From the IMG/VR virus record IMGVR_UViG_3300044574_000078, positions 1 to 46,948 of that record: a stretch of 46,948 bases of DNA. One strand, given 5' to 3'. Position 1 is the first letter of the stretch, and each line of letters begins with the position of its first letter. The stretch comes from a virus. The notes beneath the pieces were generated by a model that was given only the letters and a program-made list of their open reading frames with translations, was not told where the DNA came from and did not search any database. The position numbers and the translations under genes are program-made. Below, piece by piece: positions 4,261 through 46,948 of the stretch.

Positions 4261-4456
4261 CTTGACTTCTAAACTTGAACCCGCCACTTTTAACATTGTT
4301 AGCACTGAGACTTCGAAACCAGTGTCAAATAACGAAGCGCTATTAATATCTGCCGCCATTTCACTTAAGCGCATAGCTGACGCTGTTGAGACGCTTGCAA
4401 GTGCCGTTGATTACAGGTACGGCGAGCCTTCAATCAGGACGAGGCACGAAACGTAG
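4253..4456 (+). CDS. Small hypothetical protein (67 aa)
   Basis: ATG 4253 follows AAAGGAGAACACATA, which picks it over the upstream in-frame start at 4199. Contains one amphipathic helix (EALLISAAISLKRIADAVET). It is the last gene of this early unit, just before promoter P4. No family recognised. Confidence 0.6.
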   Translation: MADLTSKLEPATFNIVSTETSKPVSNNEALLISAAISLKRIADAVETLASAVDYRYGEPSIRTRHET

Positions 4457-4494
4457 GGGCGCCCTTAACTTCACTAACGCCATCGATTGGGCTG

Positions 4495-4523
4495 TTTACA
4501 AAGCCAGACGACCGGCGTATCCT
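4495..4523 (+). promoter_or_regulatory. Promoter P4, plus strand
   Basis: TTTACA (4495-4500), 17-bp spacer, TATCCT (4518-4523). Transcription should start near G4530, exactly at the first base of the perfect inverted repeat of the RNA gene that follows. Confidence 0.75.
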
Positions 4524-4529
4524 TACTAA

Positions 4530-4640
4530 GTTCCACCGACCCCTGGGCTCGCTTCTGTGAGAGTCCCGTCCTCGTCAACCCTCAGCAAGTTACGTTGGGT
4601 CGGTGGAACACCTAGTGCCGGCGGCTGACTGGTTTTTTTG
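4530..4640 (+). ncRNA. Candidate phage small RNA with anti-Shine-Dalgarno loop
   Basis: The stretch has its own promoter (P4), no open frame with a ribosome site, a perfect 13-bp stem that closes the RNA (GTTCCACCGACCC at 4530-4542 with GGGTCGGTGGAAC at 4597-4609), and an intrinsic terminator at 4612-4638. Between the arms are a small inner hairpin (GGGCTC with GAGTCCC, one bulge) and a probably open segment carrying AACCCTCAGC (4577-4586) and a second CCTC. AACCCTCAGC is the exact complement of the leader GCTGAGGGTT at 17515-17524. Inference: a trans-acting regulator of phage translation, or alternatively a structured leader of the primase-helicase gene if the terminator is read through. I know no RNA family that matches. 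Confidence 0.6.
4612..4638 (+). terminator. Intrinsic terminator of the small RNA
   Basis: CTAGTGCC and GGC-(TG bulge)-ACTGG form an 8-bp stem (one G-U pair) with a 3-nt loop, followed immediately by seven T (4633-4639). It sits 2 bases after the long stem of the RNA. Confidence 0.65.
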
Positions 4641-4686
4641 TGGGTTCCGCTGGGGGGGCCTTTGATCATTGGACGGGGACATTACT

Positions 4687-6774
4687 ATGCAGAAGCGTGG
4701 GAAGTCGACTACACACGACGACAAGTATCTGAGCAAGTTAGGATCGTCTGGACTCGACATCAATGACGCAGCTGCTTTGGGTATGTCCTACCTAGAGCCG
4801 AGTGAAACAAACGGTCTCCACCCGTCGTTCAAACCATTGGCTGCTCTTTGCATCGCCTACTTCGGTATTGACGGCAACACGTTAAGCGTCAGACCGAAGC
4901 ATCCTCCATTCTACAGGCTTCGCTACCTAGAGACCGACAAAAACTTCACAGGTATCACAGAAGCAAAGCAGGCTAGATACGTTCAAGAGCCAGAATCTGG
5001 TGTTGGAGCTTACTTTCCGAAGACCGTCAACTGGCAGGAGATTGCCGCTGACCACGAGACCGCGATCCTCATTACAGAAGGAGAGTTGAAGGCGGCCAAG
5101 GCAACCAAGGAAGGCTTCCCCACCATCGGACTCGGCGGCGTGTGGAACTTCAAGTCTGCAAAGAGCGGAGTTCCATTCCTCCCCGAGCTCGAGAGAATTA
5201 ATTGGTGCCGGCGTAACGTCTACATCGTCTACGACTCCGACTTCCGTGAGAAGGAAGGTGTGGTTCTAGCCATCAATGCACTGGCCGAGGAGTTAAGCGA
5301 CAGAGGAGCTGTGCCGTTTGCAGTCACGCTACCTGAACTATCTGAGGACATTGAAGTCAAGACAGGACTCGACGACTTCCTGATCCACCCTTCAGGTGGT
5401 CCAGAACAGTTGTTCGCGTTGCTCCACATAGCCCAACCGCTGACTCTTGCTAAACCTTTGTGGAGTCTGAACGACCAGGTGGTCTACATCAGGTCTCCAG
5501 GCCTCATCATAGAGCAACGCGACGACAACAAGCTGTCACCATCCGCATTCAAAGAACACGCCTACTCCACAGCAAAATACATGGAACAGGAGTTCAAGGC
5601 CGACGGGTCAGTTAGTCTAAAGAAGGTGCCCGCTGCCGGTGCTTGGCTCAAATGGCCACACCGCCGTGAGGTCAACAAGCTGACGTACGCTCCTGGTAAG
5701 GAGAAATTCTGCGACGACCCAGAGTCTCAACAGTCAGCCTACAACACATGGACCGGGTGGGGGTGCGAACCAAAGAAGGGCGATACACGACCTTGGTATG
5801 GTCTCATAAAGCACCTCTTCAGTGACGCTGACAAGGGCGCTATCGATTGGTTCCTTGATTGGTGCGCGTACCCGCTTCAGTATCCAGGGACAAAACTGTT
5901 TTCTGCTGTCGTTGTCCACGGTATTTACGAAGGCACAGGTAAGTCGTTGGTCGGTTACACACTAGGCAAGATCTACGGCGACAACTTTGCTGAGATACGT
6001 CAGGACGACATCCACAACGGTCGCAATGACTGGGCTGAGAACAAGCAGTTTGTCCTCGGTGACGAGGTTACTGGGTCAGACAGACGCCAAGATGCTGACA
6101 CGCTTAAGCGGCTTATCACGCAAAAGAAAATGCGGATTGACATCAAGTATGTCCCAGCCTATTCGCTCCCTGACTGCATCAACTATTATTTCACGTCAAA
6201 CCACCCTGACTCATTCTTCATGGGCGACAAAGACCGGCGTAATATGGTTATTGAGGTGGTTCTCCCACCACTGCCAGAAGATTTTTACGCTGAGTACGAT
6301 TTGTGGATGCACGGAGACGGACCATCGCACCTGTTCCATGAGCTGATGCAACGCGACCTGTCCAACTTTAACCCAGCGGGTCCGGCGTTCATGACTAAAG
6401 CCAAGACCCGTATGGTGGCTGACACGCGTTCAGACATTGCGTCTTGGGTTCGTCAGCTCATAGCAGATCCTGACAGACTGCTGAGAATTGGTCAACTCAA
6501 GATCGAGCGTGACTTGGTTACGAACAAAGATCTGTTGCGCTTATACGACGTCGATGGTTCGAAGAAGCTCACGGCAAACGGCCTGGGTCGAGAGCTTCGA
6601 CGGGCTGGTGTCAACTTGACAAACGGAGGAGACCCAGTCAGCACCAGCCTTGGTCTTGAACGTCTCTACATCGTACGCAACGCAGACCACTGGCTACACG
6701 CTAACATCAAGCAGATCCAAGCGCATGTTGACAAAGCTGATGGACAGCTGGTGAAAAAAGGTGTTAGATGGTGA
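4687..6774 (+). CDS. Primase-helicase (DUF3854 + DUF5906, 695 aa)
   Basis: Start ATG 4687 follows GGACGGGGACATTACT; a TTG at 4669 is the alternative. The N-terminal half carries a TOPRIM-like module typical of DUF3854: ILITEGELKAAKA (around residue 120), VYIVYDSDF and KTGLDDFL. The C-terminal half is a P4/D5-type superfamily 3 helicase (DUF5906): Walker A EGTGKSL near residue 415, Walker B FVLGDEVTG near 455, then a YFTSNHPD sensor segment. The enzyme should make primers and unwind DNA at the phage fork, working with the family A polymerase at 10723. It directly follows the small-RNA gene, so its transcription depends on readthrough or an unseen promoter. Confidence 0.88.
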   Translation: MQKRGKSTTHDDKYLSKLGSSGLDINDAAALGMSYLEPSETNGLHPSFKPLAALCIAYFGIDGNTLSVRPKHPPFYRLRYLETDKNFTGITEAKQARYVQEPESGVGAYFPKTVNWQEIAADHETAILITEGELKAAKATKEGFPTIGLGGVWNFKSAKSGVPFLPELERINWCRRNVYIVYDSDFREKEGVVLAINALAEELSDRGAVPFAVTLPELSEDIEVKTGLDDFLIHPSGGPEQLFALLHIAQPLTLAKPLWSLNDQVVYIRSPGLIIEQRDDNKLSPSAFKEHAYSTAKYMEQEFKADGSVSLKKVPAAGAWLKWPHRREVNKLTYAPGKEKFCDDPESQQSAYNTWTGWGCEPKKGDTRPWYGLIKHLFSDADKGAIDWFLDWCAYPLQYPGTKLFSAVVVHGIYEGTGKSLVGYTLGKIYGDNFAEIRQDDIHNGRNDWAENKQFVLGDEVTGSDRRQDADTLKRLITQKKMRIDIKYVPAYSLPDCINYYFTSNHPDSFFMGDKDRRNMVIEVVLPPLPEDFYAEYDLWMHGDGPSHLFHELMQRDLSNFNPAGPAFMTKAKTRMVADTRSDIASWVRQLIADPDRLLRIGQLKIERDLVTNKDLLRLYDVDGSKKLTANGLGRELRRAGVNLTNGGDPVSTSLGLERLYIVRNADHWLHANIKQIQAHVDKADGQLVKKGVRW

Positions 6775-7725: not shown

Positions 7726-7840
7726 CATCAATGAGACGCTCGAGCGCCACTCTCACAACATGACGAACTGGAGGCCAAGCCATGACCATTACCGAACAAT
7801 TCCCCATTCGCAATCGCTGGACCAACGCAGTCCAGTTTAA
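7688..7840 (+). CDS. Short ORF with DNA-ligase-like N-terminus, possible remnant (50 aa)
   Basis: ATG 7688 follows AAAGGAATAACCG. The first residues MTFKPLLAATVDDI resemble the opening of phage ATP-dependent DNA ligases (KPxLAAxxDD...), but the frame then diverges and ends at TAA 7838-7840 inside the next gene, with no KxDG active site. It may be the scar of a ligase gene replaced by the pentapeptide gene, or a coincidence. Confidence 0.35.
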   Translation: MTFKPLLAATVDDINETLERHSHNMTNWRPSHDHYRTIPHSQSLDQRSPV

Positions 7841-8618
7841 CACCGAAATCACATGTGCGCGTGGTGCGACAATTGGTTTAAAAGTCGGCTTGGCGGTGCG
7901 GTGGGCCAACCTGAGCCGGGCCGACCTGAGCGGTGCCGACCTGCGCCGGGCCTACCTGCTCGGTGCCGACCTGCGCGATGCCAACCTAGGCGATGCCGAC
8001 CTGAGCGGTGCCAACCTGAGCTGGGCCGACCTGAGCGGTGCCGACCTGCGCGGTGCCAACCTGAGCCGGGCCGACCTGAGCGGTGCCGACCTGCGCGGTG
8101 CCAACCTGAACTGGGCCAACCTGAGCGGTGCCAACCTGAGCCGGGCCAACCTGCGCGGTGCCAACCTGAGCAATGCCAACCTGCGCGGTGCCAACCTGAG
8201 CGGTGCCAACCTAAGCGATGCCGACCTGAGCGGTGCCGACCTGAGCGGTGCCGACCTGCGCGGTGCCAACCTGCGGTTTTTCAAGGCCGACATGTGGATG
8301 ACCCTCACACAGGCAAGGGGTGAAGTCCCTGCTCTGGTATCGGCTTTGCGAGAAGGCAGGGTGGATGGTTCGCAATATGAAGGCGAGTGCGCCTGCTTAG
8401 TCGGCACCCTGTCTAACGCGCGAGCTGAGCAATATCGAACCGCGTTTCCGGATGCTACAAGGGCGCACCCTGCCGAGCAATGGTTTCTGATGATCCGCAA
8501 GGGTGATAAACCGAGCGACAAGACTGGCGGTGGCTTTGCTGCTGCGAAGGCGCTGGAATGGGCGCTTGAGTATTGCGAATTAACTGGCATCGCATTGCCA
8601 GAACCGGTGCAACCATGA
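7782..8618 (+). CDS. Pentapeptide-repeat protein (278 aa)
   Basis: GGAGGCCAAGCC precedes the ATG. Residues 1-40 are a short N-terminal domain (RWTNAVQFNTEI). About 25 A(D/N)LSG-type pentapeptides follow (residues 42-168), predicting a right-handed quadrilateral beta-helix. The last 110 residues form a separate domain (WMTLTQARGEVPALVSALRE onward, ending in FAAAKALEWALEYCEL). The same three-part design occurs in many phages. Pentapeptide proteins such as Qnr mimic DNA and protect gyrase; that role here is only an analogy. The repeats are very regular at DNA level (15-bp period), so copy number may vary. Confidence 0.9.
   Translation: MTITEQFPIRNRWTNAVQFNTEITCARGATIGLKVGLAVRWANLSRADLSGADLRRAYLLGADLRDANLGDADLSGANLSWADLSGADLRGANLSRADLSGADLRGANLNWANLSGANLSRANLRGANLSNANLRGANLSGANLSDADLSGADLSGADLRGANLRFFKADMWMTLTQARGEVPALVSALREGRVDGSQYEGECACLVGTLSNARAEQYRTAFPDATRAHPAEQWFLMIRKGDKPSDKTGGGFAAAKALEWALEYCELTGIALPEPVQP
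7900..8274 (+). repeat. 15-bp tandem repeats coding for pentapeptides
   Basis: Near-identical 15-bp units such as GCCGACCTGAGCGGT and GCCAACCTGAGCGGT repeat about 25 times in frame. Confidence 0.9.
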
Positions 8619-45443: not shown

Positions 45444-45472
45444 TTTCTAGAACCATTCAAAAGGCTTGTAAA
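45444..45472 (-). promoter_or_regulatory. Promoter P10, minus strand
   Basis: TTTACA (45472-45467), 17-bp spacer, TAGAAA (45449-45444), preceded by TTGAAAATAGTTG. Drives the small unit 45399-44569. Confidence 0.75.
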
Positions 45473-45542
45473 CAACTATTTTCAATAAAGTGAAAAGTAA
45501 TTTGGGTGTTCACCAACGCTCTTATACTCGCGTGCGCACGCG

Positions 45543-45571
45543 CGCGTACCTCGGATTGAGTCGTTTGTAAA
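45543..45571 (-). promoter_or_regulatory. Promoter-like element P11, minus strand
   Basis: TTTACA (45571-45566) with the same TTGAAAATAATTG upstream as P10, but the -10 at 17 bp is TACGCG (45548-45543), a poor hexamer. Possibly a weak or activator-dependent tandem promoter, or a protein site sharing the -35. Confidence 0.4.
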
Positions 45572-45626
45572 CAATTATTTTCAAAAAATGGCTCATATTT
45601 ATTTTCACTTTGTACCATCTTTTTTG

Positions 45627-46601: not shown

Positions 46602-46747
46602 TCGTCGCCCGCCATGGTCAAAACTCCGAAAAGTCGTGGTCAAGCTGACCACTCGCATACGTGTAGGTCGACGTCAGGATGCCGTGGCCATAGACCTTGG
46701 TCTGCACTGTCAACACGTCACCACCGTCATCGACGCCCCAGCCGTAA

Positions 46748-46948
46748 TTATCGCGCGTTCACCATAGGTGCTGCGGCGATCAATTCGCATAGCTTGTCGG
46801 ACTGGCGCTTATAGGCACCGGCATCAGTGGCACGGGCGGCATAGGCAACGGCACCGGCACGGGCGGCATAGGCAACGGAGGCATAGGCAACGGCATCGGC
46901 AACGGCACCGGCACGGGCGGCATAGGCAACGGCGGCATAGGCAACGGC
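46748..46948 (-). CDS. Alanine-rich repeat protein, C-terminal part across the joint
   Basis: This is the end of the gene that starts at 645. On the closed circle base 1 is followed, on the minus strand, by 46855, and the frame continues AYAARATDAGAYKRQSDKLC and stops at TAA 46750-46748. Bases 46856-46948 duplicate 1-93. The clean non-repetitive end shows the joint is biologically sensible. Confidence 0.8.
   Translation of the reverse strand, partial: AVAYAAVAYAARAGAVADAVAYASVAYAARAGAVAYAARATDAGAYKRQSDKLCELIAAAPMVNAR
46856..46948. repeat. Terminal direct repeat, right copy
   Basis: Identical to 1-93; see the left copy. Confidence 0.9.

Follow-up and report, generated by a model that had tools for sequence, protein, structure and literature searches.

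In phage P4, the CI RNA base-pairs with two stretches of the replication-gene leader and thereby brings about termination (PMC4825925). The put RNAs of phage HK022, about 70 nt long with two adjacent stem-loops, lie downstream of early promoters, occur twice per genome and need no dedicated proteins (PMC9378689). For the replication genes of IncI-alpha, IncB and IncK plasmids, literature cited in PMC10724649 describes leader loop pairing as a switch, with a repZ pseudoknot and kissing by RNAI. Like CI RNA, seqA and seqC in the leader of the P4 alpha replication operon, the RNA described here would belong to an untranslated leader 5' of replication genes, and one of its segments is complementary to two others in the same leader; the targets in P4 flank CI on either side, whereas both partners here lie downstream of the loop that they match (P3). 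By analogy it resembles the P4 immunity RNA in logic and not in homology: our covariance model of the RNA, R1 (145 positions, 32 pairs), had no match in P4, and BLASTP of the primase against alpha gave a non-significant E of 0.37. As with HK022 put, EAR and lambda nut, a structured RNA would stand where an early phage transcript begins, but it differs from put by a closing stem, by loop complementarity and by its single copy. The plasmid leaders, likened here by description, share the loop-pairing logic in front of a replication gene, but an antisense RNA transcribed from the other strand opposes their switch.

The window, that is the whole stretch of DNA that was analysed, is an IMG/VR virus record of 46,948 bases (IMGVR_UViG_3300044574_000078). 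Its plus strand carries the replication genes (primase-helicase, 4687-6774, DNA polymerase A, a SNF2-type helicase and thymidylate synthase) and its minus strand the structural genes (portal, terminase, tail). The primase matches the PHROG DNA primase and Pfam DUF3854/DUF5906, and by this protein the closest cultured relatives are Stenotrophomonas phage vB_SmaS-AXL_3 and Pseudoxanthomonas phage PW916, whose papers mention no promoter, terminator or RNA at the site. A GGCACGGGCGGCATAGGCAAC-type repeat reaches both ends of the window (46811-46944 and 1-300), so the ends probably join, as in a circular or permuted genome. The features of the site are the following.

4494 to 4523, plus strand: predicted sigma-70-like promoter, GTTTACA-N17-TATCCT, predicted +1 at 4530.
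4530 to 4542, plus strand: 5' arm of the closing stem P1; 11 of 11 modelled pairs changed on both sides, 98.3% of cells paired.
4544 to 4568, plus strand: hairpin P2, variable among lineages; predicted fold, helices 2 and 3 weaker (80% and 60%).
4573 to 4594, plus strand: hairpin P3 with the 9-nt loop CCUCAGCAA at 4580-4588; predicted fold, loop near-invariant among relatives.
4597 to 4609, plus strand: 3' arm of the closing stem P1; fold, repeat search and pair statistics.
4612 to 4632, plus strand: hairpin P4, the terminator stem of the earlier note; fold, relatives and pair statistics (helix 5).
4633 to 4639, plus strand: run of seven T after P4, seen in the sequence and private to the window phage; possible attenuator.
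4642 to 4661, plus strand: hairpin P5, GGGUUC-CGCUGGGG-GGGCCU; relatives and pair statistics (helix 6).
4687 to 6774, plus strand: primase-helicase gene with DUF3854 and DUF5906; ATG start, in-frame TTG at 4669.

The earlier note had described here a 13-bp inverted repeat, a promoter with +1 at 4530, a hairpin two bases further on and seven T, and these coordinates are right. The arms of P1 are perfectly complementary over 13 bp with 54 nt between them. Perfect 13-bp repeats with 30-100 nt between the arms occur three times in the window, against a mean of 0.03 in 100 dinucleotide shuffles of the whole window (maximum 2 in any). The RNA of 4530-4640 folds at -42.8 kcal/mol (z = -2.4).

The promoter that had been assigned to the RNA is also borne out: its boxes are TTTACA (4495-4500) and TATCCT (4518-4523) with a 17-nt spacer, and the predicted +1, the seventh base past the -10 box, is the first base of P1. 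Among the representatives of the relatives, 34 of 41 have a -35 box (TTTAC or TGTAC) 34-41 nt 5' of P1, and in nearly every member of the family P1 begins on the base where transcription is predicted to start. The window carries eight exact GTTTAC-N18-TANNNT sites, exclusively on the plus strand (1666, 4494, 6783, 8688, 13280, 17471, 45626 and 46048), and 18 sites, against 5.2 expected, when one mismatch is allowed. From its sequence, this motif is a recurring predicted promoter of the window phage. In the region preceding the structural operon, two 24-nt direct repeats lie 99 nt apart (45466-45489 and 45565-45588), and each contains a minus-strand GTTTACA motif.

The comparison of relatives gives good support to a conserved structured RNA family and to its fold; the family is apparently undescribed. 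The absence of a known family, already noted from the sequence, was confirmed in Rfam 15, where neither the window nor the loci of ten relatives matched at gathering thresholds, and a lax-threshold search of 4400-4720 gave chance matches only. Searches with the primase brought in 9 contigs from genomes and about 60 from viruses; a further 67, in part the same ones, came from a second round. Within one primase clade most relatives have an equivalent element directly 5' of the primase. In all, about 40 non-redundant phage lineages, AXL_3 and PW916 included, have an equivalent RNA before this DUF3854/DUF5906 primase-helicase; that of AXL_3 occupies 46627-46794 on the minus strand. Around primase genes, 39 loci match R1 at E < 1e-4. 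Each lies just 5' of the primase and on its strand, and more than ten of the lineages are outside the model-building set; the window itself scores 81 bits (E 2e-24). A scan of all viral IMG/VR contigs with the three loop motifs, blind to the primase, returned 60 stretches, where rough arithmetic expects one to a few tens by chance, and 48 of them are convincing R1 matches. The primase is the next gene in all 44 R1-matching stretches with enough downstream DNA, and the placing of the window RNA just 5' of the primase-helicase (ATG at 4687) holds for the family. Two other R1 matches (L109 and L110, E about 5e-4), with no primase in the 3.2 kb searched downstream, were taken as chance. Exact copies of the window P1 were searched in the viral contigs and none was found.

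The distance from P5 to the start codon of the primase varies, usually between 20 and 110 nt. In one lineage (L027, L106 and L125) the gap between the RNA and the primase is about 525 nt, and it is similar in two further R1 matches (L149 and L187), so that close contact with the primase ribosome site is not required. The L027 insert (L027:2900-3400) has an ORF beginning MKTCTSCGESK that looks like an HNH endonuclease.

In the primase tree, a single clade of 40 rows (support 100/99) contains every one of the 30 rows with the RNA, and the window is a deep branch of this clade. The presence of the RNA requires seven changes on this tree; with the single clade, this fits an old gain followed by several losses. 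In 17 of 18 relatives that have no RNA, the primase lies within about 20 nt of the upstream ORF or overlaps it. Together with the tree, this packing suggests that the RNA accompanies a primase that heads its own transcript.

The family has a common layout: P1 encloses the variable P2 and P3, and the hairpins P4 and P5 lie beyond it. P1 is 9-20 bp long and its sequence is quite different from one lineage to another. Compensatory changes in relatives, which the earlier note had named as a test, are abundant: among 37 distinct sequences, each of the 32 model pairs shows at least one both-sided change, as do 305 cells against 112 in shuffles, and the covariation score is 0.59 against 0.19 in shuffles and 0.07-0.15 for slid structures. 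Cells are paired at 61.5% in P3, 77% in P4 and 75% in P5 in the same sequences. Because fitting to the model shaped the alignment, the scores of these weaker helices lean towards the model; P1 is beyond such doubt. Plain MAFFT/RNAalifold on all sequences recovers only the pairing of the P3 and P5 loops and misses P1, because the lengths of P1 differ.

In the model-fitted alignment, P1 has 18 G-U pairs and 3 A-C pairs, and this excess favours a plus-strand RNA over double-stranded DNA or the opposite strand. The same excess speaks against a replication-origin or priming element, whether DNA hairpins or a primer RNA, to which we would give hardly any weight. Such an element would suit the adjoining primase gene and the iteron-like TGTGTAGCG/CGCTACACA repeats, AT-rich stretches and polypurine tracts that several relatives have about 80-400 nt upstream. 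However, transcription heads away from the iteron and AT-rich region, the RNA has been lost among relatives, and in others the AT-rich region is about 600 nt upstream with a gene between while the RNA stays with the primase. The origin-like region lies 80-400 nt 5' of the RNA promoter in L105, L114, L070, L085 and L058 and contains the TGTGTAGCG/CGCTACACA repeats in both orientations, an AT-rich stretch, a AAGAAGAAG polypurine tract and a conserved TTATTGATTTATA-like sequence. A variant of GAAGC type occurs in L034. The iterons of the relatives (TGTAGCG) are absent from the window, and GC skew was uninformative as origin evidence.

The usual loops are CCUCAGCAA, near-invariant, in P3, GCUGAG in P4 and GCUGAGG in P5, and those of P4 and P5 are both complementary to that of P3. 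In most lineages, CUCAGC of P3 matches GCUGAG of P4, and (C)CUCAGC(A) matches (U)GCUGAGG of P5. In the window, GCUGA of P4 (4624-4628) is complementary to UCAGC of the P3 loop (4582-4586), the P4 hairpin being weak (-5.4 to -6.4 kcal/mol), and the P5 loop GCUGGGG (4649-4655) is complementary to CCUCAGC (4580-4586) with one G-U pair. In some lineages the loop partners have changed together. Both partners are changed in L034 and L052 (UAAGCG with CGCUU), a change that the two share and that may be one event; the register is shifted in L022 (CAGCAAG with CUUGCUG) and in L053 and L004 ((C)AGCAGG with CCUGCU(G)); and L132 has 11 complementary loop nucleotides. P4 or P5 is absent or altered in some lineages: L034, L052 and L132 have a single loop partner, and the partners are not clear in L031 and L061. 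Covariation also links the base just before the P3 loop to the one just after the P5 loop, C occurring with G and U with A. The Watson-Crick contiguous score of this flanking pair is 31 against 17, with p = 0.0002, or 0.07 when G-U is counted, in a permutation that ignores relatedness. The same test for P4 gave no such signal.

A 5'-terminal stem that only shields the primase mRNA against degradation, with no regulatory part for the complementary loops, would explain why nearly every member has P1 starting on the first base predicted to be transcribed, and stems without an unpaired 5' end are generally known to stabilise mRNAs. We regard this as very improbable, since it accounts neither for the conservation of the P3 loop, P4 and P5 nor for the way in which they changed together.

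The earlier note had seen a complete, terminated RNA gene of about 110 nt at 4530-4640. The hairpin at 4612-4632 and the seven T do exist, but the hairpin is the conserved P4 and the T-run is found in the window phage only: in the other representatives, no T-run follows P4 or P5 between P1 and the start of the primase. The conserved structure runs on through P5, and the limits were therefore too short, the element as conserved among relatives reaching about 4662 in the window. An intrinsically terminated small RNA gene has a promoter of its own, which was found, and a terminator at its conserved 3' end, which was not. Since no terminator is conserved and a second promoter would hardly fit in, the primase mRNA most likely has this RNA as its 5' leader; the same follows for the family, as no terminator stands after P5 in relatives and the primase starts soon after.

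A trans-acting small RNA, stand-alone or processed, is the alternative that deserves most thought, although we find it rather unlikely. The P1-P3 domain would be released, by the T7 terminator in the window and by processing elsewhere, and its P3 loop would find partners in the P4 and P5 loops of newly made leaders, or in other RNAs, so that the primase would be under negative feedback like that by the CI RNA of phage P4. P1 does close a compact domain of 80-100 nt, as in P4 (PMC4825925) a single loop is matched by two complementary targets within its own leader, and T7 follows P4 in the window; against it, there is no conserved 3' end or terminator. The window is enriched in the sequence TCAGCAAG, with 7 occurrences where 2.5 are expected.

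On balance, we favour a conserved structured 5' leader of the primase-helicase mRNA in which a loop-loop switch would control primase expression. Sequence comparison establishes the family, P1, the co-changing loop complementarity, the promoter and the fixed place before the primase, and the other stems more weakly; from these we infer which loop pair may form in the cell, whether it would act in cis or in trans and in which direction control would run. As transcription is predicted to start on the first base of P1, the mRNA would open with a blunt stem of 9-20 bp enclosing P2 and P3. The P3 loop would then pair with the loop of P4 or that of P5, both transcribed just later, and as it can hold one only, the leader should act as a switch. 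Which partner is taken, be it in the same transcript or in another, would set the amount of primase, at the level of transcription read-through or of translation, and the 5'-terminal stem may additionally protect the mRNA. In the window phage, the P4 state, followed by T7, would become an intrinsic attenuator, and the transcript could end before P5. No conserved pairing to the Shine-Dalgarno sequence of the primase was found. P5 was also tried as the ribosome site of a short upstream ORF and rejected: an ATG soon after GAGG is found in 10 of 30 cases against 4.9 expected and is not universal.

The leader could also work as a put-, EAR- or nut-like antiterminator, a nascent RNA that modifies RNA polymerase for read-through of terminators, including the T7 of the window. 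It is a structured, promoter-proximal RNA heading a long block of genes on the same strand, as the protein-independent put RNAs are downstream of their promoters (PMC9378689). Nevertheless, the operon shows no enrichment of terminators to be read through (18 terminator-like sites in the window region against 17.8 by chance) and contains further GTTTACA promoters, and each genome has one copy of the RNA. The putL/putR-like architecture of about 70 nt with two stem-loops was not found here, nor did R1 match the HK022 segment searched (NC_002166, 24000-40751). We therefore consider antitermination improbable.

The work thus defines an apparently undescribed structured RNA family, deeply conserved in tailed phages and fixed before the gene that starts DNA copying; to our knowledge, RNA regulation of primase in lytic phages is hardly known. 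A bolder form, which we think unlikely, is a replication switch made of RNA only. One loop would choose between two downstream loops, and the P1-P3 domain would accumulate free and act in trans on new leaders, with no antisense gene or repressor protein. By this means, lytic phages would gauge their copy number and set the moment at which primase is made. Given the strong covariation, the fold and the loop partners can be tested with a small number of compensatory mutants, and the R1 seed serves to annotate the family.

Two minor observations were made in passing. A candidate type II hammerhead ribozyme (35.2 bits, gathering threshold 37, E 0.0015) lies at L003:11207-11269 and L005:7625-7687, in a related phage whose primase has no leader RNA. 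In the window, 7782-8618 encodes a protein that consists mostly of pentapeptide repeats (Pfam PF00805, E 4e-55), a class of proteins that includes gyrase-inhibiting DNA mimics.
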